Assembly (NCBI GenBank): GCA_026004455.1
Contig: BPJE01000003.1
Span: 1 to 64,000, forward strand
Reading direction: 5' to 3'
Length of the DNA stretch: 64,000 bases
Source of the DNA: Patescibacteria group bacterium
GTDB taxonomy: Bacteria; Patescibacteriota; Microgenomatia; UBA1406; GWC2-37-13
The notes under the pieces are model-generated. The model worked only from the letters and a program-made list of their open reading frames with translations, searched no databases and was not told where the DNA came from. The translations under genes were made by a program, and so were the position numbers. Shown here in pieces: positions 1,532 through 62,341 of the stretch. Numbering within the stretch: position 1 is the first letter of the stretch; each line of letters starts with the position of its first letter.

Positions 1532-3283
1532 ATGAAATTTACTTGGAAGATTGGTGGAGAAGCAGGATTTGGAATAATGACAACCGGTCTTCTTTTTTCA
1601 AAAATTGCTTCAAGGTTGGGTTATGAGATTTTTGATTATATTGAGTATCCATCACTTGTTCGTGGTGGTCATAATGCTTATGAGGTTTGTGTCTCAGATG
1701 AAAAAGTGACTGCATTGGAAAAAAATATTGATATTTTGGTTTGTCTAAATAAAGAAACTTTTGAAAAACACAAAAAAAGACTTCACAAAAATAGTTTAAT
1801 CATCTATGATAATCAAGAATTTGATTTTGAAGATGATTATGTAAAAATTAATGTGCCTTTTAAAAATATTCTTAAAGAGTTAAATGGCGAGCAAATAATG
1901 AAAAATACGATTTCACTTGGAGCTAGTTTGGCAATTTTAGGTGGAGAGATCAAAGTTTTAAATGACTTAATATATGAACAGTTTATAAAAAAAGGAAAAG
2001 AGATCATTGAGTTTAATCAAAAATTTGCCAAACAAGGATATGATTTTGTAAAAAATAATTATTCAAAACATATTAAAATTTTTTTGGTTGAAAAACAAGA
2101 AAAACAGGAAAAATTAGTCTTAACAGGTAATGATAGTTTTTCTTTAGGAGCAGTGGCAGCTGATTGTCGATTCTATGCGTCTTATCCGATGACACCTTCA
2201 TCATCAGTTTTGACAAATTTAGCTTCTTGGCAAGATAAAACTGGTATGATTGTTCGTCATGCTGAAGATGAGATATCAGTTATTAATACTGCACTGGGTG
2301 CATCTTTTGCTGGATTAAGAGTAGCAGTTGGGACATCTGGTGGTGGTTTTGCTTTGATGGTTGAAAGTTTATCTTTTGCTGGAGTAGCTGAGATACCAAT
2401 AGTGGTCTTTTTAGCTTCACGTCCTGGTCCAGCTACTGGTATGCCAACTTGGACAGAACAAGGAGATTTACTTTTTGCTACTTTTGCTGGACATGGTGAG
2501 TTTCCAAAAATTGTTTTCGCTCCTGGTGATCAAGAGGAGATGCTTGAGTTGACACTTAAGGCTTTTAATTTAGCAGATATTTATCAGACTCCAGTAATTG
2601 TTATCTCTGATATGTATTTGTCAGAAGGGCATAGAACTATTGGTAAAGATTGGTTTGAGAAAGTGGTTGGGGAATATAAAATAAATAGGGGAAAAATAAT
2701 AGATAATTCAAAAGTCAATCCGCCAAACGGCGGACAAAAGTCAAAATTAGAAAATTTTTTAAGATACAAAATCACTGAGGATGGGATTTCTGAAAAGATT
2801 TTACCAGGAACACCGGGATATTTTTATCAAGAAAATTCATATGAGCATTTAGAAGATGGTCATACGACTGAAGAGGCTGAGCCTAGAAAAAATCAAGTAG
2901 ATAAAAGAAATCGAAAATGGCAGACTTATTTAGATCAAGATTTTCAAATGCCAATATTTTATGGAGAGGAAGCTGAGATGGTTTTTGTTTCTTGGGGATC
3001 AATAAAAGGAATAATTTTGGAAGCACAAAAACAATTAGCTCAAAAAGGCATCAAAACTGGTTTTTATCATTTTAATCATATTTATCCAATTGATAATGAA
3101 AAAGTTAAAAAACTATTTGAAAAAGATAAAAGATATATTTTAGTGGAAAATAATTCTTGGGGGCAATTTGGAAAATTATTAACAATGGAGACAGGAATTG
3201 AGATTAAAGAAAAAATTTTACGTTATGATGGAAGACCAATTGAGGTTGAACAGATAATTAGATTAATAATTAAAAATTTTTAA
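1532..3283 (+). CDS. 2-oxoacid:ferredoxin oxidoreductase, fused gamma-alpha subunit
   Basis: The 583-residue large subunit of a cytosolic 2-oxoacid:ferredoxin oxidoreductase, which with the beta subunit downstream oxidatively decarboxylates a 2-oxoacid to acyl-CoA and reduces ferredoxin. Residues 1 to about 185 form the gamma domain (GGEAGFGIMTTG near the start, then YPSLVRGGHNAY). The alpha pyrimidine-binding domain follows, with YPMTPSS and GTSGGGFALM. This gamma-alpha order is that of KorA-type two-subunit enzymes; the true substrate (2-oxoglutarate, pyruvate or other) cannot be assigned. Around residue 396 an in-frame insert encodes NPPNGG; it comes from a 16-bp palindrome (2719-2734) flanked by AAAAGTC repeats, probably a tolerated insertion in a linker. 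Confidence 0.92.
   Translation: MKFTWKIGGEAGFGIMTTGLLFSKIASRLGYEIFDYIEYPSLVRGGHNAYEVCVSDEKVTALEKNIDILVCLNKETFEKHKKRLHKNSLIIYDNQEFDFEDDYVKINVPFKNILKELNGEQIMKNTISLGASLAILGGEIKVLNDLIYEQFIKKGKEIIEFNQKFAKQGYDFVKNNYSKHIKIFLVEKQEKQEKLVLTGNDSFSLGAVAADCRFYASYPMTPSSSVLTNLASWQDKTGMIVRHAEDEISVINTALGASFAGLRVAVGTSGGGFALMVESLSFAGVAEIPIVVFLASRPGPATGMPTWTEQGDLLFATFAGHGEFPKIVFAPGDQEEMLELTLKAFNLADIYQTPVIVISDMYLSEGHRTIGKDWFEKVVGEYKINRGKIIDNSKVNPPNGGQKSKLENFLRYKITEDGISEKILPGTPGYFYQENSYEHLEDGHTTEEAEPRKNQVDKRNRKWQTYLDQDFQMPIFYGEEAEMVFVSWGSIKGIILEAQKQLAQKGIKTGFYHFNHIYPIDNEKVKKLFEKDKRYILVENNSWGQFGKLLTMETGIEIKEKILRYDGRPIEVEQIIRLIIKNF
2719..2734. repeat. Palindrome TCCGCC...GGCGGA inside a CDS, family C copy 1
   Basis: A 16-bp palindrome with flanking CAAAAGTC units lies in frame in the oxidoreductase gene and encodes NPPNGG. 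Other copies are at 7275-7290 (inside the FemAB gene), 27587-27602 and 37113-37128 (both intergenic). Confidence 0.8.
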
Positions 3284-4268: not shown

Positions 4269-6614
4269 ATGGCTTTTTTACTTGGAGCATCAGAACAATC
4301 TATTTATCCAGTTGCCGCTGTGCGTGATGGAATTGTTTTTCCAGGCACCGAAAATGTATTGATTTTTGGTCGTTTAAAAAGTACTAATGCGATAAATCAA
4401 GCATTAAAAAAAGATAAAAAAGTAGTGTTACTGCTTCAAAAAAAACCAGACCAAGAAGATCCTAAAAAAGAAGATCTTTATACAGTTGGTGTTTTAGCTT
4501 CAATAGAAAAAACTGCGACTGGTGAAAAAGGAGAGATTAATGCCTTGATTAAAGGTTTGGAAAAAGTTAAATTAATTGAGTTTACTAAGGATAAAGATTA
4601 TTTTGAAGGAAAATTTGAAGTAGTAAAAGATATAGTGAAAATTGATGAAGAAACTGAGGCAATGGTAAAGTATTTATCTACTAAGATAAAAGAGGCAATT
4701 AATATGGGTAAAGCAGTTGATTTTGTTTTTTTAATGAATATTTTAAATGTTAGTAATCCGCAAAATTTTGCCAATCAAATGGCAGTAGTTTTGGATATTA
4801 AGCCAGAAGAACGACAAAAATTACTTGAGGAAAATGATTTAAAAAATAGACTTAAAAAAGAAGTTGAGTATATTAATAGAGAGTTAAAAATTCTTGAGAT
4901 CGAACATAAGATTGCTTCAAAAACTCAAAAGAAGTTTGAACAAGGAATAAAAGAAAATATTTTAAGAGAAAAGATGAGGACAATTGAAGAGGAATTAGGT
5001 GAACGAGATGATCAAAAAGAAATTAGAGAATATGAAGAAAAAATCAAAAAAGCAAAAATGCCAAAAGAGGTTGAGGAAAAAGCTTTAAAAGAACTTAAAA
5101 GATTAAAACAAATGTCGCAATTTAATCCGGAAACTTCATATATCAGAACATATTTAGATTGGTTAGTTGAACTTCCTTGGTCAGTAGCCTCACCAAATAA
5201 TATTGATATTAAACAAGCAGAAAAAATTTTAAACGAAGAGCATTATGGTTTGAAAAAGATTAAAGAAAGAATTTTGGAATACCTGGCAGTTTTGGAGCTT
5301 CGCAAAATGAAGAAAAATGAAAAAAACAAACAACCAACAATTATTTGTTTTGTTGGTCCTCCTGGTGTTGGAAAAACATCTTTGGGTAAATCAATTGCAA
5401 AAGCTTTAGGAAGAAAATTTGTCAAAATGTCTTTGGGTGGGATAAGAGATGAGGCGGAAATAAGAGGCCATCGACGAACATACGTTGGCGCTTTACCTGG
5501 TAGGATAATTCAGGGGATAAAGCAAGCTGGTACAAAAAATCCAGTTTTTATGCTTGATGAGATTGATAAAGTTGGTCGTGATTATAGGGGCGATCCTTCA
5601 GCGGCTTTGCTTGAAGCTTTGGATCCAGAACAGAATCAAGATTTTTCTGATCATTATTTAGAAGTACCTTTTGATTTATCTAATGTGTTTTTTATTACAA
5701 CCGCAAATATTCTAGATACAATTCCACCAGCATTACTTGATCGACTTGAGGTGATTCATTTTCCAGGATATACAGAAGATGAAAAATTTCATATTGCTAA
5801 AGATCATTTATTAAAAAAACAAATGGAAATTCATAGTTTGTCCTCAAAAGAGATAACAATTACTGATGCAGCAATAAGAATGTTAATTAGAAGATATACT
5901 CGAGAAGCAGGGGTAAGAGAATTAGACCGTCAGATTGGAACAATTATGAGAAAAGTTGCTCGTAATATTGTTGAGAAAAAATATCAGAGAAAAACAGTCG
6001 GTGTTAGTGATTTACCAAAATTTTTAGGACCTTATAAATACTCATCACAAATGATTGAGGAAAAAGATACAATCGGTATTTCCACTGGTTTGGCTTGGAC
6101 ACAAGCAGGAGGTGATATCTTGTTTATTGAAGTAGCAGTAATGCCAGGAAAAGGAAATTTGACTTTAACTGGGCATTTAGGTGATGTTATGAAGGAATCT
6201 TGTCAAGCAGCTTTATCTTATGTAAGGGCTAGATATGATAAGTTTGGTTTAAATAAAGATTTTTATCACAAAGTTGATATTCATGTTCATGTACCAGAAG
6301 GAGCAGTACCAAAAGATGGACCATCAGCGGGTTTAGCAATTGCTACAGCAATGATTTCAGCACTGACAAAAAGACCAACTTACAGAACTGTGGCAATGAC
6401 AGGCGAGATCACTTTAAGAGGTCGAGCGCTTGAGATTGGTGGTGTCAAAGAAAAAGTAATCGCTGCTCATCGAGCGGGTATAAAAACTGTGATTATGCCA
6501 AAAGATAATAAAAAAGATTTGGAAGATATTCCAGATTATGTCTTAAAAGATCTGAAATTTGTTTTTGTTAGACATATAGATGAGGTGGTTAAAGTAGCCA
6601 TAAAAGAGAAATAA
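4269..6614 (+). CDS. lon: ATP-dependent protease Lon
   Basis: A 781-residue LonA protease that degrades misfolded and regulatory proteins in the cytosol. The order is an N-terminal substrate-binding domain (1 to about 205), a coiled coil, the AAA+ domain with Walker A GPPGVGKTS at about 363 and sensor/lid, then the serine peptidase domain. The catalytic dyad is Ser686 in PKDGPSAG and Lys729 in GGVKEKVIAAHRAG, the usual 43-residue spacing. It has its own consensus promoter directly upstream with a palindromic operator candidate. Its last 72 bp overlap the end of the convergent FemAB gene. Confidence 0.97.
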   Translation: MAFLLGASEQSIYPVAAVRDGIVFPGTENVLIFGRLKSTNAINQALKKDKKVVLLLQKKPDQEDPKKEDLYTVGVLASIEKTATGEKGEINALIKGLEKVKLIEFTKDKDYFEGKFEVVKDIVKIDEETEAMVKYLSTKIKEAINMGKAVDFVFLMNILNVSNPQNFANQMAVVLDIKPEERQKLLEENDLKNRLKKEVEYINRELKILEIEHKIASKTQKKFEQGIKENILREKMRTIEEELGERDDQKEIREYEEKIKKAKMPKEVEEKALKELKRLKQMSQFNPETSYIRTYLDWLVELPWSVASPNNIDIKQAEKILNEEHYGLKKIKERILEYLAVLELRKMKKNEKNKQPTIICFVGPPGVGKTSLGKSIAKALGRKFVKMSLGGIRDEAEIRGHRRTYVGALPGRIIQGIKQAGTKNPVFMLDEIDKVGRDYRGDPSAALLEALDPEQNQDFSDHYLEVPFDLSNVFFITTANILDTIPPALLDRLEVIHFPGYTEDEKFHIAKDHLLKKQMEIHSLSSKEITITDAAIRMLIRRYTREAGVRELDRQIGTIMRKVARNIVEKKYQRKTVGVSDLPKFLGPYKYSSQMIEEKDTIGISTGLAWTQAGGDILFIEVAVMPGKGNLTLTGHLGDVMKESCQAALSYVRARYDKFGLNKDFYHKVDIHVHVPEGAVPKDGPSAGLAIATAMISALTKRPTYRTVAMTGEITLRGRALEIGGVKEKVIAAHRAGIKTVIMPKDNKKDLEDIPDYVLKDLKFVFVRHIDEVVKVAIKEK

Positions 6615-7535
6615 TTTTAAATAAATCTGTCTTAAAAAATATAAAATATTGTAGATTTGATATACAAAGGGATTGATAACAAGATCAAAACTACCAACAA
6701 ACTCGACAAATTTTGTTCCATAACCGCTTTTAAAACGAGTAAAACCTGCCCAAGGATGATTTTTATTATAATCAGGAGGTAATGATCCCCACATATCAAA
6801 TTTTTTCGCTCCATTTTTTTTAGCAAATTTTATTGCTTCCCACATCAGTAAATTTGCTCCCATTAAATTGCGATATTTATTAGATGAACCGCCATATACA
6901 TAATAACCAACTTTATCATAAATCCATATTTGATAAGCAGCTAGAGGTTCATCATTATAAAAAGCAATTAGAATATGAGCAATTTTATCTTTTAGATTAT
7001 TCCAAACAATTTTGTGATAATTGTAATTATGACCTAAATAATGTTGTCTTTTGCAAGTATCAAAATAAAGTTTGGAAAAAATTTCAAAACCTTTATCATT
7101 TGAGATTTCTTTAACAACGACACCTTTTTTTTGCGCTAAACGAATATTGTAACGGGTTTTATGATGCATATTTTTTAAAAGTTCTTCTTCAGATTTTGTT
7201 AGCTCCAAAATTTGCGTCCAATTAGGAAATAAAGGATGAGGAGAGTTGATAATTTTAAAAATTTTTGATTTTTGTCCGCCATCTGGCGGATTGATTTTTG
7301 ATTTTTCTTCATATGGCTCAATTTTTATAAAAATTAAATTGTTTTCTTTACCAAATTGATAAAGTTTTTTCAAAGTTTTTTCATTAGGCATAGTTGAGCG
7401 AGGAAGATAGCCGATTTTGTATTTTGTGTAAGGGATTTTGTGAATTGTTAATAAAAAATCATCTATTTTTTTTGTTTCAATACCCATTTGTTCGCGAGCA
7501 TTTTTCCAAAAAGATGTTTGTAGGGGATGAGTCAT
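6543..7535 (-). CDS. FemAB-family peptidoglycan bridge aminoacyltransferase
   Basis: A 330-residue FemX/FemAB protein. This GNAT-fold family transfers amino acids from aminoacyl-tRNA to the lipid II peptide, building interpeptide bridges. The start MTHPLQTSFWKN matches the family's HPLQS.W opening; the C-terminal GNAT half holds YYVYGGSSNKYRNLMGANLLMWEAI and FDMWGSLPPD. An in-frame palindrome (family C) at residues 82-87 encodes NPPDGG in a linker. The gene converges on lon and overlaps it by 72 bp. It opens the minus-strand surface-glycan block. Which amino acid is added is unknown; some members instead modify proteins. Confidence 0.85.
   Translation of the reverse strand: MTHPLQTSFWKNAREQMGIETKKIDDFLLTIHKIPYTKYKIGYLPRSTMPNEKTLKKLYQFGKENNLIFIKIEPYEEKSKINPPDGGQKSKIFKIINSPHPLFPNWTQILELTKSEEELLKNMHHKTRYNIRLAQKKGVVVKEISNDKGFEIFSKLYFDTCKRQHYLGHNYNYHKIVWNNLKDKIAHILIAFYNDEPLAAYQIWIYDKVGYYVYGGSSNKYRNLMGANLLMWEAIKFAKKNGAKKFDMWGSLPPDYNKNHPWAGFTRFKSGYGTKFVEFVGSFDLVINPFVYQIYNILYFLRQIYLKLFLFYGYFNHLIYMSNKNKFQIF
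7275..7290. repeat. Palindrome TCCGCC...GGCGGA inside a CDS, family C copy 2
   Basis: A 16-bp palindrome in frame in the FemAB gene, giving NPPDGG. On the gene strand the bases after it repeat the ACAAAAATCAAAAAT pattern seen next to the other copies. Confidence 0.8.
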
Positions 7536-7540
7536 TTTTA

Positions 7541-7583
7541 GGGACGGTCCTTTTAGGTTCTGTCCTTATCAAGGATAGAACCT
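7541..7583. repeat. Family A palindromic element, diverged copy 2
   Basis: 43 bp almost identical to 23813-23855. It contains an AGGTTCTGTCCTT / AAGGATAGAACCT hairpin (7555-7583) preceded by GGGACGGTCC. It overlaps the 3' end of the glycosyltransferase gene and supplies its last residues. Confidence 0.75.
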
Positions 7584-23812: not shown

Positions 23813-23855
23813 GGGACGGTCCTTTTAGGTTCTGTCCTTAGTAAGGATAGAACCT
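23813..23855. repeat. Family A palindromic element, diverged copy 3
   Basis: 43 bp nearly identical to 7541-7583, with the same GGGACGGTCC lead and AGGTTCTGTCCTT hairpin. It lies between dtd and the PBP1A gene. Confidence 0.75.
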
Positions 23856-27519: not shown

Positions 27520-27664
27520 AAAATAAGTTTTTATTTTTCAATTTTCAGTTTTCAATAAGTTTTCAGTTTTTAGTTTTCATTGAAAATCCGCCAGCTGACG
27601 GAAAAAAATGAAAAATAAATATTCATTGAAAAATGAAAAATTTAAAATGAAAAATTACTTTTTT
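27520..27664. repeat. Degenerate TTTTCA/TGAAAA repeat tract with family C palindrome
   Basis: Imperfect ttttcagttttca-type units run in one direction, then in the other, with a diverged TCCGCC...GACGGA palindrome (27587-27602) at the turning point. The whole can fold as a very long AT-rich hairpin. Similar tracts are at 578-744 and 32577-32782. Confidence 0.65.
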
Positions 27665-32576: not shown

Positions 32577-32782
32577 TCCAAAAATAAGTTTTCATTTTTC
32601 AGTTTTCATTTTTCAATAAGTTTTTAATTTTCAGTTTTCATTTAAAAATTAAAAAAATTAAAAATAAATATTCATTGAAAAATGAAAAATTTAAACTGAA
32701 AAATTATTTCCTTAATTACTCAATTACTTAATTACTTTTCATTTTGACTTTTGACTTTTGAATTTTGACTTTTGACTTTATC
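32577..32782. repeat. AT-rich repeat tract ending in TTTTGAC heptamers
   Basis: The first part repeats ttttcagttttcattttt in both orientations; the last 50 bp are heptamers TTTTGAC and TTTTGAA in tandem. No gene is visible between ftsK and mltG. Confidence 0.65.
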
Positions 32783-37112: not shown

Positions 37113-37128
37113 TCCGCCAGCTGGCGGA
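37113..37128. repeat. Palindrome TCCGCC...GGCGGA, family C copy 4
   Basis: A perfect 16-bp palindrome between mraZ and rsmH, flanked by TTTTGATTTTTG and TTTGAATTTTT. It might form a weak attenuator, but no T run follows immediately. Confidence 0.7.
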
Positions 37129-41054: not shown

Positions 41055-41102
41055 TAAAAATTTTGACTTTTGACTTTTGACTTTTGAATTTTGAATTTTA
41101 TT
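41055..41102. repeat. TTTTGAC/TTTTGAA heptamer tract between murE and pgeF
   Basis: Tandem TTTTGAC units (four) then TTTTGAA. The same unit recurs at 32741-32780, 44136-44168, inverted at 43190-43221 and 62113-62160. Confidence 0.7.
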
Positions 41103-41843: not shown

Positions 41844-43224
41844 TAAATTTTTAAATCAATTTAAAAACATTTTTTTTCTTGGTATTAAAGGAGTGGCGAT
41901 GACTAATCTGGCGGTTTTTTTAAAAAAAATGAGAAAAAATATTTATGGAGTTGATGTTGAGGAAGAGTTTATAACTGATAAATTACTATCAAAATATAAC
42001 ATATTATATCAAAATAATTTTAATAATCTACCAGAAAATATTGACCTTTTTGTTTATTCAGCTGCTCATCAAGGATTAAATAATCCCTTAACAAAAGAGG
42101 CAAAAAAAAGAATGATTACAGTTATTTCTCAAGCAGAATTATTAGGAGAGATAATGAAAAATTTTCAAAATAAAATTGCAGTTTCTGGTTGCCATGGTAA
42201 GACAACAACCTCATCTTTACTATCATATGCTTTGCTTAAATTAAATCAAAAACCCTCATACATTGTTGGTGTGCCTTTTTTTGGAGATTATCAAGGTGGT
42301 GATTATCAAGAGAAAAAATATTTTGTTGTTGAAGCTGATGAATATGGGATTAATCCGCCAATTGATAAAATGCCAAAATTTTTAAAATTAAATCCTGATT
42401 GGATAATCTGTACCAATATTGATTTTGATCACCCGGATGTTTATAAGGATATCAAAGATACAAAATCAGTATTTTTAAAATTTTTTCAGAGTAAAAAGTT
42501 GATTGTCAATATTGATGATGAAAATATAAAAGAGGTAGTTGGAAAAATTAAAAATAATCAAAATATCTATACTTATGGTTTTTCTGATAAAGCTGATTAT
42601 CAAATATTAGATTGGCAAGTTAATGAAGATGGATCAAAGTTTACAATAAAGAATTTAGGAGAGTTTAAAATTGATATTTTTGGAAAACATAATATCTTAA
42701 ATGCCACTGCGGTGATTGTCCAGTTATTAAAACTTGGATTTGATGTTGACAAAGTAAAAGAAAATTTAAAAGGATTTATTGGCGCGAAAAGACGAATGGA
42801 ATTAGTTTTTAAAGGAGATTTTTATATTGTTGATGATTATGCTCATCATCCTCAAGAAATTAAAGCTACTCTTGAGGCAGCAAGAGAACGATTTAAAAAT
42901 AAAAGATTAATTGTTATTTTTCAACCTCATACTTATTCGAGAACAATGTCACTTTTAAATGATTTTAAGGAAAGTTTGGAGGTAGCTGATATTGGTTTTC
43001 TTTTGCCGATATTTGCCTCAGCAAGAGAAAATAAAGGTGATTTTACTGTTTCATCAAAAGACATTGTTTCTAATTCAAAAAAATTATTTTATTGCGAAAA
43101 TGAAGATCAGTTATTGAAAAATTTAGAAAAAATATTGAAAAAAAATGATGTTGTCTTTACAATGGGAGCAGGAGACATATATAAATTAAAAGTCAAAATT
43201 CAAAATGCAAAAGTCAAAAGTTAA
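41836..43224 (+). CDS. murC: UDP-N-acetylmuramate--L-alanine ligase
   Basis: A 462-residue ligase adding the first amino acid of the stem peptide. The N-terminal Rossmann domain has FLGIKGVAMTNLAVFL, ATP binding is SGCHGKTTTSSLLS, then EADEYGINPP and the C-terminal DDYAHHPQEIKATLEAARERF with IFQPHTYSRT. The final residues KVKIQNAKVKS are encoded by inverted heptamer repeats, so its tail has been altered. It starts inside the end of pgeF. Confidence 0.96.
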   Translation: MNNKFLNQFKNIFFLGIKGVAMTNLAVFLKKMRKNIYGVDVEEEFITDKLLSKYNILYQNNFNNLPENIDLFVYSAAHQGLNNPLTKEAKKRMITVISQAELLGEIMKNFQNKIAVSGCHGKTTTSSLLSYALLKLNQKPSYIVGVPFFGDYQGGDYQEKKYFVVEADEYGINPPIDKMPKFLKLNPDWIICTNIDFDHPDVYKDIKDTKSVFLKFFQSKKLIVNIDDENIKEVVGKIKNNQNIYTYGFSDKADYQILDWQVNEDGSKFTIKNLGEFKIDIFGKHNILNATAVIVQLLKLGFDVDKVKENLKGFIGAKRRMELVFKGDFYIVDDYAHHPQEIKATLEAARERFKNKRLIVIFQPHTYSRTMSLLNDFKESLEVADIGFLLPIFASARENKGDFTVSSKDIVSNSKKLFYCENEDQLLKNLEKILKKNDVVFTMGAGDIYKLKVKIQNAKVKS

Positions 43225-44119: not shown

Positions 44120-44171
44120 TAATGAATAATGAAAAATTTTGACTTTTGACTTTTGAATTTTAACTTTTATT

Positions 44172-49235: not shown

Positions 49236-49325
49236 GGGTCCCTAACCCAAGCGCTCAGGTGGTTTTCCCCTTGAATATTTTATTCAAGGTTGCCTTTTGA
49301 CTTATTAGTCATACTGCCTGAGCGC
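49236..49325 (+). ncRNA. Candidate scoutRNA/tracrRNA of the Cas12d system
   Basis: The region between promoter and cas12d carries a 10-nt perfect complement to the CRISPR repeat: GTCCCTAACC at 49238-49247 against GGTTAGGGAC in the repeat. A second match, GCCTTTT at 49292-49298, complements the AAAAGGC end of the repeat. Structure is strong: closing stem GCGCTCAGG (49251-49259) with CCTGAGCGC (49317-49325); inside it hairpin CCTTGAATA (49269-49277)/TATTCAAGG (49281-49289) and small hairpin TGACT (49298-49302)/AGTCA (49307-49311). Cas12d is known to need a short scoutRNA with brief repeat complementarity. Here the RNA would form the 5' leader of the cas12d message. Ends are estimated. Confidence 0.82.
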
Positions 49326-49337
49326 ATTTATATAAAA

Positions 49338-52300
49338 ATGAAAGGTTATAAAATTCATATAAAAAGAATTGAAGAAACTTCTGGAGAGATTATCAGAACT
49401 ATTAAATATCCTCTTCAAAATATAAATAAAAATAATATAGAAATTGAAAATCAGTTATTTTCCAATCTCATTAATGATGATAAAAAAACAAGAGGAATAA
49501 GCAATATTATAGATTTTTATCAAGAAAATGAAAATTATAATCTTTTTGATTTTTGGATTGATTCTTTAAAAGCTGGAATTATTTTTCAGCCTACCTCAAA
49601 ATATTTAATTGATTTTGTAAAAAAAATAAGAAACGAAAAATCAATCGCTGATGAAATTTTTGAAAATTCAAGTGAAGAAATAAAAAAATATTTTAAAAAG
49701 AGAGAGTTTATAAAGAATATAATTATTTCTGATCCAAAAAGATCAAATTCTTCAAAAAATGGTTTTTTTAATACTCTTTTTGAATCTATAAAAGATGAAT
49801 ACAAAGATTTAAAAAATAAGCGAATAGTTGATCAGAATTTAGAAAAAATTATCAAAACTATAATTGACTCTTTTTATGATGATAAAGATAAATTGTTATT
49901 AGAATCTGGAGAAAAACAAAATAATTTTTGGAAGAAACAATTTAATATAGACAAAGATTTACTTAGTAGTAAAGAAAAAACAAAAATAGGTGAATTAACA
50001 AATTTTATTTTACCTGAATTGATAAATATTAAAAATAATCAAGTTACTTTAGAAGAATTAATTAATCAAAGAATTAAATTAGCTGAATCATATTTACAAA
50101 AAATAAATTTAAATCTAAATAATAAATATGAAATAACAAAATCGTTATTGGGACTAGAAAATAATTTTAATGCTTTATCTAATTATTTAAATATTTTTTT
50201 TAATTTTTTAATTGAAGAAAAAATTGATGATATTATTGATGCTTATTTAAAAATAACAACTTTAAATGAACAAGAGAAAGAGCTTGTGAAAGAATCTTTA
50301 TTTTACTTATCAAAAAAAACAAAAAATTTAGGAAAACCTAAGTTTATTAATTCAAATTGGCAAGATTATAGAAGTATTTTTGGTGGTAAAATTCAAAGTT
50401 GGTATTCTAATTATGTAAACAGATTAACAAAATCAAAAGAAAATTATAATTTATTTATAAAAACTTTAGAAAATACTATTGATTATCTAAACAAAAATAT
50501 AAATTTAAATATTGATGAAAATAAGGAAAAGATAGAAATTGATATTTTAAATAGGATAAATTATCTTAAAGATATTTGTTTAAAAAATAAAGATATATTT
50601 GAAAATGTAGAAAAATTTCAAATATTTTCTGATTATTTAGCTGAAATAAAAACGTTAGTAAATCTTTATTTTCAAAAATATTTGAAAAAAAATGACGATG
50701 ATAAGATAAATCAAAATAAAATATTTGGTTTTTTATTCAAAAAAATAGAAAAACCAATTAATTTTTATGGGTATTCTAAAAAACAATTTTTAAGCAAAAT
50801 AATTAAAACTACTTCTTTAAAAATAAAAGATGGATACATTATTATAAAAAAACTATTAAATGAAATAAATAATTTAAAAGATAAAGATTACAAAAAAGCA
50901 ATTGAAGAGATATTAGAGATATTTTTTGAAAAAATATCAAGAAAAACAATAACTTCGGCTTTTTTCTTTAATGAATATAAAAAAATTTTTAAAAAATATA
51001 TAGACGAAAAAGAGGATTTAAAAAGGATTTTTAATCATTCTGATTATTATGCTTTTTATAAAAATCCAAGAGAAAAGCAGAATAAGAAAATTATTCAAAT
51101 AAAAAAAGATATAAAAATAAAAGATTTATTATATGATTTTTACAATTTAATCAATAGTATCAACTATGAATATCTTATTAAGAATCCTTTGTTATTCTTA
51201 GAATACCTTGAAACAGCAAAATCATTAATATCTATTTTTATTCAAAATAATGTCAATAATAAATTTAAAATAAACAAAAATGAGTTTTTAAACTATGAAA
51301 AAATTAATCATTTTATTGAGTTACAAAAAAAAGAGGATTTTACCAATGATGAATTTAATAAAATTATAAATCAATATTTTTTTTCAGAATTAAAAGGAGC
51401 TTTAAATATCTATTCAAAAAAAGTTGAAGTTAATAAATACAATCTTCAAATAATAAAAAGCCAAGAAAAATTTCCCATTATTTTAGAATTTCCTCAACAA
51501 TTAACTATTGATGATTTAATTAATAAAAATAAAGAATTAATTAATCTTTCTCATAAATATTTTGTTGTCTTTGATCAAAATTTTTCTTTTAAGAAAATCA
51601 AAAATAATAATGAAAAAACCAACCATTTCTTTATAAATAAAAATGAAATAATTCCTATAAAAATTATTAATTTAAAAAAAGAATTAATTTATTTTATTAA
51701 TTCTTCTTTTTACCAAACTCAATTTTTAGATAGATTAATTTATAAGCCAAAAAATTGGGAGAATATTAAGATTACAATATCTGAACCTTCTTTTATATTA
51801 GAGATAAAGAATTGTATAAACTTTGATATTTTTAATGAAAAAATTGATTTTAAGGAAAAAAATAGACAGTTATTTATATCAGTTCCTTTTAATATCACTT
51901 CAAAACAAAATATATCAACAAATAAAATGGAGAATAAAAAAAATCTTTATATGGGTATTGATGCGGGTGAGTATGGTGTAGCTTATTGTTTGGTAGATTT
52001 TTCAGAAAAAAAAACCAAAAATTTTAGAAACAGATTATATAAGAAGCAAAAATATAAGAAAAATCAAAGATTATTATCATAAAATTCAAGAAAGGGCAAA
52101 AAAAGGTATATTTATTCAATCTTCATCTATATTACAAGAAATTAGAGAAAACTCAATCAATGAGATAAGGAACAAAATACATAATTTATATGTTAAATAT
52201 AAATCTCCAATTATTTATGAATATTCAATCAGTAATTTTGAAACAGGTTCAGGAAGAGTCACTAAAATATATGATTCTATTAAAAAATCTGATGTTGTGC

Positions 52301-52950
52301 CAGATAATGAAGCTGATAAAACTATTATCAAACATATTTGGGGAAAAGAATACATAAGAGTAGGAAAAAATTTATCAGCTTATGCCTCAAGTTTTACTTG
52401 TGTTAAGTGTGGAAGAAGTATTTATTCTATTTTAGAAAATTTTGAAAATCATAAAATGAAAATTTTAAAAAGAATTCAGAATGATGGTATAAAAAATATT
52501 TTAGAAATAGAAACAAATTTAGGTATTATCTTTGGTTATTCAAATGATAGTAAGTTTAAAGAAGATTATCTATTTAATAATTCTAAAGAAGATAAAAGTA
52601 ATTTTATAAAAATAGTAAAAAATTTTACTAGACCTCCATTAGAAAAAAGCGAAGTTTTGCTAACTTTTAAAAAATTAAATAGAAAAACTTTAAAAAATAT
52701 CAAGAAAAAAAGAGGTAATTCTGCTATATTTATCTGCCCATTTAAAGATTGTCAACATGTATTTGATGCTGATTTACAAGCTGCTTTTATAATGGCTTTA
52801 AGGGGTTTTATAAAAGATATCATCCCAAATAATAAAGATATAAATATTTTTGAAGAAACTTTAGAATATTTATCTGAAAATAAACCTGTTAATTTTGAAT
52901 TTTTACAAAATCAAGATTTATTTTCTTTGCCTCAGTCCAAAAATCAGTAA
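49338..52950 (+). CDS. cas12d: Cas12d (CasY) effector nuclease, interrupted by a frameshift
   Basis: With one base removed this frame gives 1203 residues, the size of Cas12d. The N-terminus (MKGYKIHIKRIEETSG, RTIKYPL, FDFWIDSLKAG) and the SSFYQTQFLDRLIYKPKNW region match CasY proteins as I remember them. RuvC-I is YMGIDAGEYGVAY with Asp875; RuvC-II SPIIYEYSISNFETGSG with Glu961; RuvC-III FDADLQAAF with Asp1143/1145. A zinc ribbon is formed by TCVKCG (about 1020) and CPFKDC (about 1135). The frame breaks at an A9 run (52006-52014), between RuvC-I and -II; eight A would restore EKKPKILETDYIRS. The start ATG is chosen because the frame upstream is the RNA gene. As given, a truncated 914-residue protein without RuvC-II/III results. 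Confidence 0.93.
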
Positions 52951-53905
52951 TGCCTGCTGTATGACCATAAAGTTTAAACCCAGAATTTATCGGTCTTCCT
53001 CCTCTTGGTTTATCTATTTGAGGCACTATAAATCTTCTTGTTTTTTTATTTAAATACATCCTTAAAGATAAAACTATTCCATGTAAAAGTTCTTGAAAAG
53101 TAGCTATTTGTCTTGTTGAGTGGACATAGACTTGTTTATTTAGTAATTCTTTAATTTTTTCTATTGCTATTGGCAATAAATTATTATTATTTTTTATACT
53201 TTGATTTTCTTTGTATAAATCAAAAATTACTTTATCAAAATAACCCCTATAAGGCTCAATTAGATCATATACTAAAGATGGATAATCTGTTGGATTGTGT
53301 AAAAATCCATGATATGGGCTTAAATTATGATATAAAATCCATCTTAAAATAATACTACTTACAAATTTTGATATTGCGTTTAAAGTTTTTTGGATTTCAT
53401 TATTTTCTCTTCTTTTTTGATCTAAACCAAGGCTTAAAAAATATTCTTTCCAATATCGTTTTGCGTGCCAAGCTTCGATATTTTTCATTTTTTGAATATC
53501 TGTAATTTTATAAAGTTGATCTTTTGCTGAATTTATAAGCCATTCCATACTTTTAAATTTTGCTAAAATAAGTTTTTTTGCTATATAACTTCTTTTTTTA
53601 TCATTTTCTCTAAATTTTATTTGTTTTGTTAATAAATCATCTGAATCAGATGTAAGACTAGGAGTGATTATTGATGCTCGAGCTAAATTACGTCTATGAA
53701 AAATAATTGGTATTTTATAAAAGGCACATTTATCTATAAAATCTGCAGGCAAATCACAACTATCTCCATAAATCATTATTGAATGTATATCGACCCAATC
53801 TATCTGAACCTCTCCGCCTTTATATATAAATTTTACATTTTTTGGTTTTATATCTATACTATTTAGATAAGGAAGCCATAAATATTTTTTTCTTTTATAG
53901 GACAT
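52889..53905 (-). CDS. cas1: CRISPR integrase Cas1
   Basis: A 338-residue Cas1, which inserts new spacers at the leader end of the array. The metal-binding residues are in place: Glu144 in KNIEAWHAKRYW, His203 in GFLHNPTDYPSLVYDLIEPYR, and Asp214/Glu217 in the same stretch. No cas2 or cas4 is found near it, as in other Cas12c/Cas12d loci where Cas1 appears alone with short spacers. It is convergent with cas12d, overlapping its end by 62 bp, and divergent from the array. Confidence 0.94.
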   Translation of the reverse strand: MSYKRKKYLWLPYLNSIDIKPKNVKFIYKGGEVQIDWVDIHSIMIYGDSCDLPADFIDKCAFYKIPIIFHRRNLARASIITPSLTSDSDDLLTKQIKFRENDKKRSYIAKKLILAKFKSMEWLINSAKDQLYKITDIQKMKNIEAWHAKRYWKEYFLSLGLDQKRRENNEIQKTLNAISKFVSSIILRWILYHNLSPYHGFLHNPTDYPSLVYDLIEPYRGYFDKVIFDLYKENQSIKNNNNLLPIAIEKIKELLNKQVYVHSTRQIATFQELLHGIVLSLRMYLNKKTRRFIVPQIDKPRGGRPINSGFKLYGHTAGITDFWTEAKKINLDFVKIQN

Positions 53906-54005: not shown

Positions 54006-54027
54006 AACAATAAAAAAATTAATTTCT

Positions 54028-55310
54028 CACCGAAGGTTAGGGACAAAAAGGCAATTGAAAACTCCGACATCACCGAAGGTTAGGGACAAAAAGGCAAGAC
54101 TTTCTCTCTGTCCCACCGAAGGTTAGGGACAAAAAGGCAAACTTTCAAGCGGGGATCACCGAAGGTTAGGGACAAAAAGGCTATCTCTGACCACATTAAC
54201 ACCGAAGGTTAGGGACAAAAAGGCAGCAGTGGTTGAGGTTGTCACCGAAGGTTAGGGACAAAAAGGCAGAGTGATTGGGAGGCTTCACCGAAGGTTAGGG
54301 ACAAAAAGGCAACAAATAAGAGAATTTTACACCGAAGGTTAGGGACAAAAAGGCTTTGAAACAAATGGTATGGCACCGAAGGTTAGGGACAAAAAGGCTC
54401 CGTCGTAATGAACAACGCACCGAAGGTTAGGGACAAAAAGGCGCGTGGTCTTATGATGGCGCACCGAAGGTTAGGGACAAAAAGGCATACCATACTTCAC
54501 ACCATCACCGAAGGTTAGGGACAAAAAGGCTTCTTTTTATTAACAGTTCACCGAAGGTTAGGGACAAAAAGGCTCTTTCGCATCAATTGCATCACCGAAG
54601 GTTAGGGACAAAAAGGCTTGGAACCTCCTGTTTTCCACCGAAGGTTAGGGACAAAAAGGCCAATATAAAAAACTTTCCCACCGAAGGTTAGGGACAAAAA
54701 GGCAACAGGAGGAAGTAGGAGCACCGAAGGTTAGGGACAAAAAGGCAAAGCGTTGCTCCTCTTTCACCGAAGGTTAGGGACAAAAAGGCTAATAGTCAAT
54801 AATCCAACACCGAAGGTTAGGGACAAAAAGGCCTTCTTTTGGTCTGCCTTCCACCGAAGGTTAGGGACAAAAAGGCACAAAACAAAAAAAGCATCACCGA
54901 AGGTTAGGGACAAAAAGGCTTTTATAACCTAAATCTTCACCGAAGGTTAGGGACAAAAAGGCAAAAACGAAACCCGCCAGCACCGAAGGTTAGGGACAAA
55001 AAGGCAAAAGCGGTGTTTTTGCCACACCGAAGGTTAGGGACAAAAAGGCAAAAGAGCTGATGGTTGGCACCGAAGGTTAGGGACAAAAAGGCTATCCCCC
55101 CTTTTTTGACCACCGAAGGTTAGGGACAAAAAGGCTTATAAACATTATCAGGTAACACCGAAGGTTAGGGACAAAAAGGCTGGCACAAAATCCAACAGGC
55201 ACCGAAGGTTAGGGACAAAAAGGCCAAGTCAGGCCAAACGGCCACCGAAGGTTAGGGACAAAAAGGCTTAACAAAAATTTTAGAACACCGAAGGTTAGGG
55301 ACAAAATAAT
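54028..55310 (+). CRISPR. CRISPR array, 30 repeats of 25 nt, 29 spacers of 18-20 nt
   Basis: Repeats begin CACCGAAGG and end AAAAAGGC, nearly all identical; units recur every 43-45 bp (first copies at 54028, 54071, 54114). The last repeat (55286) has lost the final AAGGC, so this is the trailer end and the leader is on the cas1 side. I counted 30 repeats. Spacers are 18 or 19 nt, one 20 nt, much shorter than the 30-40 nt of most CRISPR systems but as reported for Cas12c/d loci. The repeat resembles published CasY repeats (CNCCGA start, AAAGGC or ATAAGGC end). Several spacers are far more GC-rich than this genome. Confidence 0.98.
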
Positions 55311-55324
55311 TTTTTATTTTTAAC

Positions 55325-55367
55325 AAGGACAAAACCTTTTTAAAAAAGTTCTGTCCTTTTTTTTTAA
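55325..55367 (+). terminator. Terminator after the array (family A palindrome copy 4)
   Basis: Hairpin AAGGACAAAACC / AAGTTCTGTCCTT (55325-55358) runs into a T run (to about 55365). It would end the array transcript 15 bp after the last repeat. Confidence 0.8.
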
Positions 55368-62093: not shown

Positions 62094-62304
62094 AAATATT
62101 TAACACTTAAAAATAAGTCAAAAGTCAAAATTCAAAAGTCAAAATGAAAATTCAAAATTAAAAATGGAAAAAAACTACTTTGTCATTCCTGGCTTGACCA
62201 GGAATCCAATCTTCTCCAATCCGACCTACGAGTTCGCCTGTGGATTGCCGGGACAATATAAAAATAAACAAAATTGAGTAATTTTTAAATTAAACTTAAT
62301 TATT

Positions 62305-62341
62305 AAGGACAGAACCTTTTTTTCAAAAAGGTTCTGTCCTT
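62305..62341. terminator. Family A palindrome copy 5, probable terminator after ftsZ
   Basis: Two perfect 17-bp arms (AAGGACAGAACC to GGTTCTGTCCTT) around a 3-nt loop. It may end dcw transcription. Confidence 0.7.

Follow-up and report, generated by a model that had tools for sequence, protein, structure and literature searches.

The window analysed here (64,000 nucleotides) comprises positions 1-64000 of contig C3 of the genome G000, which is affiliated with Microgenomates/Roizmanbacteria-like Patescibacteria; the nearest named relatives are Microgenomates/Roizmanbacteria MAGs. A KorA-like 2-oxoacid:ferredoxin oxidoreductase alpha subunit (Pfam POR_N/POR) is encoded at 1532-3283(+). This ORF contains an in-frame copy of a short palindrome, referred to as family C, at 2719-2734(+) (TCCGCCAAACGGCGGA, translated as DNSKVNPPNGGQKSKLEN; longer context ...IIDNSKVNPPNGGQKSKLENFL...), which together with CAAAAGT flanks forms a composite at 2710-2741. 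A second in-frame copy is located at 7275-7290(-) (coding strand TCCGCCAGATGGCGGA, translated as EEKSKINPPDGGQKSKIF; longer context ...YEEKSKINPPDGGQKSKIFK...; composite 7268-7299) in a gene for a FemAB/FemX-like aminoacyl transferase (Pfam FemAB; 6543-7535(-), read from 7535 to 6543). Two further copies are intergenic: a degenerate one (TCCGCCAGCTGACGGA) at 27587-27602(+) in a TTTTCAG/TGAAAAA heptad-like tract, and a perfect one (TCCGCCAGCTGGCGGA) at 37113-37128(-), 14 and 16 nt away from the neighbouring genes. All four positions, and their division into two in-frame and two intergenic copies, had been given correctly in the original prediction. Its wording for the family, TCCGCC...GGCGGA with CAAAAGTC-like flanks, does not fit the copy at 27587, which is imperfect and has flanks of the TTTTCA/TGAAAA type.

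Other elements were recorded in the same window. Palindromes of a second family are present at 1471-1504, 7555-7583, 23827-23855, 55325-55358 and 62305-62341 (10 half-sites versus 0.04 expected). Elsewhere in the genome, this second palindrome (AAGGACAGAACCT..AGGTTCTGTCCTT) is found on both sides of the only Y1_Tnp (RAYT-like) gene (G000:C2:730-1528, L059); it therefore looks like the REP of that Y1 transposase, and the RAYT probably belongs to it. A split Cas12d/CasY, a Cas1 and a CRISPR array occupy 49290-52082, 52297-52950, 52892-53905 and 54027-55310. Positions 1-914 of the Cas12d/CasY profile are matched in one ORF and 1011-1180 in the next, Cas1 is encoded on the other strand, and the array has repeats of ~25 nt and spacers of ~18 nt. 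Fragmented CasY with self-targeting spacers has been reported in Roizmanbacteria (PMC6509639).

For copy number analysis, the whole genome (894,682 bp, 0.895 Mb, 5 contigs) was searched for TCCGCC-NNNN-GGCGGA (TCCGCCNNNNGGCGGA), and 23 copies with exact arms were obtained. The control, here and throughout, was the reversed pattern, which is likewise palindromic and has an identical composition. It had 0 copies in the same 0.895-Mb genome (p ~2e-7), so the abundance of family C is not due to chance. A search that tolerated at most 2 mismatches to TCCGCCARYTGGCGGA gave 34 copies, 14 of them in frame within genes and 20 intergenic. The core is 16 nt long, with a 6-bp stem and a 4-nt loop (TCCGCC-ARYT-GGCGGA), and the minimal context is CAA-[16 nt]-CAAA. 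The predicted hairpin is stable (about -11 to -12 kcal/mol), and in one copy an arm change is compensated (TTCGCC..GGCGAA). An ARYT loop is present in 32/34 copies. The two exceptions are those of the two window proteins, with AAAC (encoding N) in KorA and AGAT on the coding strand (encoding D) in FemAB. The peptide NPP[ND]GG originally predicted for the family does occur in both window proteins, but these loops mark it as a local variant: in copies elsewhere in the genome this frame reads NPP[A/T/V]GG, and SASWRT and IRQLADK are also present.

Most copies in the genome are embedded in degenerate AT-rich heptad tracts, (CAAAAGT/CAAAATT)n, in one orientation; a typical copy with its flanks reads ...CAAAAGTCAA-TCCGCCARYTGGCGGA-CAAAAGTCAAAA.... 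Heptad tracts without palindrome were also found, both between genes and within proteins. The window contains (TTTTGAC)5.6 at 41061-41099(-) and (ACTTTTG)6.7 at 32734-32779(-), both intergenic and without palindrome, an AAATTCA/AAAAGTC array at 43183-43221(+) which spans a gene junction, and intergenic (TTTTGAC)4.6 and (TCAAAAT)7 at 44137-44168(-) and 62118-62165(+), respectively. Since these arrays are short and local, lag-7 autocorrelation over the window was not raised, but 4 strict arrays were counted at lag 7 versus 0-1 at each other lag from 4 to 12. It had been claimed that the flank was inserted together with the palindrome. The palindrome does come with its flank, but the flank is a heptad tract that also exists without it. 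In the genes for LeuRS (L067:2505-5078(-)) and MiaB (L054:2398-3648(+)), several heptad-coded peptides without palindrome were noticed (e.g. NSKFKIQNSKLQFKIQN). The LeuRS heptad peptide comprises 13 residues and corresponds to a gap in Thermus LeuRS.

Hosts of genic copies include KorA, FemAB, LeuRS, transketolase, MiaB, a P-type ATPase, an Xaa-Pro peptidase, a LysRS-like protein, a SpoU methylase, glycosyltransferases and an NAD(P)HX dehydratase-like protein. Only 14/34 copies (41%) are genic, versus 88% coding sequence in the window (p ~1e-10), which indicates that genes tend to be avoided as sites but can tolerate copies. Without exception, the genic copies are read on the stop-free CAAAAGT strand (14/14, p ~1e-4); the opposite strand of the tract reads TTTTGAC and soon gives TGA. 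All three reading frames are used in the genome (NPPxGG in 9, SASWR in 4 and IRQLAD in 1 of the 14), hence NPPxGG is not "the" family C peptide. When the genic copies of all inspected genomes were pooled (47), the frames PPxGG, SAxWR and RQLAD were counted 26, 15 and 6 times, a bias toward PPxGG (p 0.002), though the copies from GC-rich genomes may include some native sequence.

The genic copies are insertions at loops and linkers prone to indels. In KorA, the insertion (residues ~392-405) lies in an indel-prone linker just before FLRYKITEDG. Internal gaps shared by many of 30 homologues fall, E186 apart, at 392-397 (SKVNPP) only, and in the AF2 model pLDDT is below 50 at 396-398 and 400-408, with other loops of the model low too. 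The FemAB-like protein has a FemX fold (PDB 6snr), and its insertion INPPDGGQKS (residues 81-90) is in a loop that is hypervariable among homologues. The mean pLDDT of its AlphaFold model is 91; residues 81-90, at 61, form the lowest block outside the C-terminal tail. In transketolase, the eight residues NPPVGGQK are missing from human transketolase (TKT). Homologues with the same peptide at the same site, which the original prediction had named as counter-evidence, were not found: homologues of KorA, FemAB and transketolase, from 29 relatives each, were without the palindrome there. The six added residues first proposed for both window proteins are confirmed against the nearest KorA, but 8 were counted in transketolase; the count varies with the homologue chosen for comparison, since these linkers were prone to indels already. 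Against homologues, the insertion comprises 10-11 residues in the P-ATPase and ~23 in the LysRS-like protein. Transketolase of genome G007 carries a 15-nt heptad-free insertion (FGG-PPAGG-FF).

In FemAB relatives, the same loop is filled by heptad-type peptides (VKSQKSK..., VKSQKLK...) and also holds other repeat-like peptides (VILNSFQDL..QVQHDKN, RVIPAKSGIQ...); two transketolase loops are likewise filled by repeat-like peptides in relatives. NSFQDL..QVQHD, VIPAKSGIQ, DSRLRGND, PFDKTQGHPEQSR and RVRND are presumably translations of other bacterial repeats. Such peptides were seen in FemAB homologues L131/L138, L115 and L125 and in transketolases L183, L184 and L198. Recurrence at the same site was found for GDH, MiaB, LeuRS, GT2 and Pth. 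In GDH, the palindrome precedes TVAVQGFGNVGY in two genera, with differing frames and repeat contexts. In the GDH of G006 (L021, near 1501), family C is nested in an inverted repeat of greater length (GTCATTCCGAG...CTCGGAATGAC) that is in frame throughout, and two repeat families are thus stacked within one protein loop. GT2 contains the palindrome in three genomes; one copy is in another frame, and two have the same frame and flank, either by common descent or by transfer. Pth contains it in two genera. In MiaB and LeuRS, G000 has only heptads, and G052 and G058 have the palindrome in addition.

For distribution analysis, copies and controls were counted across genomes. Summed over the host family (sums transcribed from tables), 264 family C copies were obtained versus 2 controls, with copy numbers from 0 to 23 among genomes within one genus or family. 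A Patescibacteria sample outside this family (380 genomes) gave 841 copies versus 27 controls, whereas 300 Bacillota genomes gave 240 versus 258, i.e. no excess. Of the two phyla compared, the excess is present in Patescibacteria and absent from Bacillota. The composite AAAAGTCAA-TCCGCCNNNNGGCGGA-CAAAAGT (3 mismatches allowed) was detected in 9/72 family genomes from 6 genera (control 0). The CAA..CAAAA form was detected in 17/380 phylum genomes (control 0), where it is frequently bordered left and right by a heptad that differs from locality to locality. The flanks in further genomes are unrelated, which identifies the core as the shared part. For viral stretches, at least 120 matches to the core were listed, a count made without control and hence uninformative on carriage by viruses; the composite of palindrome and heptad flanks had 0 matches. 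No account of family C in Patescibacteria was found in an incomplete literature search, which is weak evidence of novelty.

A comparison of the MiaB genes of G000 and G052 points to a way in which the palindrome may enter a coding tract. AATTCAAAATTCAAAATTC in the former stands against a tract with TCCGCCAATTGGCGGA in the latter, a difference of exactly 12 nt; in this one pair, the 16-nt palindrome is in place of 4 nt of heptad. Because CAA plus 16 nt gives 19 nt versus the 7-nt heptad, i.e. +12 nt, the frame is kept. Flanks in CAA phase were found in 12/14 genic versus 2/20 intergenic copies of the genome (p ~1e-5, tested post hoc after the pattern had been noticed). Intergenic copies are mostly CAAA+16, which would be +13. 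From the one pair and the post hoc test, we hypothesize a frame-neutral +12 exchange.

Family C is probably best regarded as a short repeat unit that, in this lineage, lives mostly in heptad tracts, (CAAAANT)n, and is spread by exchange or slippage plus selection. Heptad tracts would arise and lengthen through slippage and trade units via recombination or gene conversion, whereby a palindrome-bearing unit (CAA+16, 19 nt) could replace a 7-nt unit with the frame intact. Selection would then purge copies which cause frameshifts, introduce stops or land in structured regions, so that surface-loop peptides remain. Most likely, the inserts are close to neutral and the turn-like PPxGG frame is mildly preferred; a dedicated transposase would not be needed. 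A more far-reaching version can be put forward only tentatively, as it seems somewhat less probable than not: a transposase-free mode of protein evolution, in which interchangeable 7-nt and 19-nt units spread into coding linkers throughout Patescibacteria, the palindrome-bearing one persists there because its +12 nt are frame-safe, and the same loops of core enzymes are overwritten time and again, with the repeat family differing between lineages.

Slippage and recombination would explain flank, phase and loops. They leave unexplained that one palindrome is kept phylum-wide and that heptad-free insertions occur. The heptad-free core cases (G007 transketolase, G006 GDH) indicate that heptads are not required and that the core may move by itself. 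A rather unlikely alternative is a MITE-like mobile element which is moved by another transposase and for which the heptads are merely a preferred target. It would fit the several unrelated contexts in which the core is found within the phylum, in some cases as a clean insertion, and the composition-controlled excess phylum-wide. Against it, terminal inverted repeats are absent apart from the 6-bp stem, the heptad phase is limited to mainly two registers, and no consistent target duplication was seen where filled and empty sites were compared, between distant relatives only. The enzyme survey, which covered Y1, yielded no candidate.

Mobilisation by a Y1 (RAYT/IS200-like) transposase, with family C as a REP-like miniature transposon, is improbable. 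Y1_Tnp genes are present in 52/72 family genomes, including one in the genome studied here, and the GC-rich hairpins of REPs are comparable in the size of stem and loop (PMC3733652). However, the only Y1_Tnp gene of this genome (G000:C2:772-1479) has AAGGACAGAACCT, not family C, on both flanks, and the nearest family C copy is ~0.85 kb off with another gene between. Palindrome number and Y1 number are not significantly correlated (Spearman 0.19, p 0.11), no Y1 match was obtained in five genomes (incomplete MAGs) that have 6-12 family C copies, and the hairpin foot carries neither a GTAG nor a CGTC tag. Y1/RAYT was therefore rejected as the likely mover on the lack of copy-number correlation, which is indirect evidence, and on the different palindrome flanking the genome's own gene.

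A functional DNA or RNA site under selection (terminator, DNA-uptake signal or protein-binding site) is very unlikely. The stable hairpin and the compensated arm change would suit such a role, but copy number varies from 0 to 23 within one genus or family and 41% of the copies lie within genes. Between co-directional genes, the U-rich side is turned toward the transcript in 5/14 cases (p 0.42), and without such a bias family C does not behave as a terminator; this role was rejected. Classic uptake signals are far denser than the ~25-40 copies per Mb of family C, which counts against that role. Chance, or native protein sequence encoding PPxGG, is suggested by a few genic palindromes without repeat flank in GC-richer genomes, but is already refuted for the genome studied here by the control counts, the ARYT loops, the heptad flanks, the three frames and the absence from the site in homologues.

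Family C extends a process comparable to that of the protein-coding palindromes best known from Rickettsia and Wolbachia to a major, mostly uncultured bacterial radiation with reduced genomes. The affected loops belong to aminoacyl-tRNA synthetases, transketolase, MiaB, P-type ATPases and others, and the system offers a model, open to testing, of peptide addition to essential proteins by short DNA repeats. Caution is advised in reading lineage-specific insertions in such proteins as adaptations, as they may be repeat debris.

Cyanobacterial heptanucleotide STRRs are degenerate 7-nt arrays which fill intergenic space, like the heptad tracts described here. Their sequence differs, and the arrays in the present genome include a palindrome unit and extend in frame into genes. 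RPEs of Rickettsia (and WPEs of Wolbachia) are dispersed palindromes found between genes and in frame in unrelated, often essential genes, inserted at solvent-exposed or loop positions, with different repeat groups sometimes near one site (PMC3767692, PMC10969869, PMC2229807). They are defined by a size of ~105-150 bp, long stem-loops and ~12-bp terminal inverted repeats (PMC2229807, PMC3767692). The likeness to RPEs noted in the original prediction extends to in-frame peptides in unrelated proteins, to the occurrence of family C both between genes (20) and in frame within them (14), and to insertion at surfaces or loops (FemAB pLDDT 61, KorA linker <50, indel-prone sites). It does not extend to size and sequence features: the family C core has 16 nt (24-34 nt with flank) and a 6-bp stem, and three frames (NPPxGG, SAxWR, RQLAD) take the place of one conserved peptide. 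Heptad-tract context and Patescibacteria host differ as well. Family C works like RPEs but is not a member.

CGTC-tagged palindromic repeats, which include RPE-4 and RPE-6, are short hairpins with 8-9 bp stems, a CGTC tag and 4-5 nt loops; they have intragenic units and no transposase association (PMC3733652). Family C resembles them as a short intragenic hairpin with a 4-nt loop and, as far as Y1 is concerned, without transposase association, but has no CGTC at either end, a 6-bp stem and the flank consensus CAA / CAAAA. With REP/REPIN and their RAYTs, of which intragenic copies are known, it has in common a short GC-rich hairpin and tens of copies. It differs in having no GTAG tag, in not flanking the RAYT gene and in showing no correlation with Y1 copy number. 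Family C is filed among protein-inserted palindromic repeats, outside the two known short-palindrome superfamilies.
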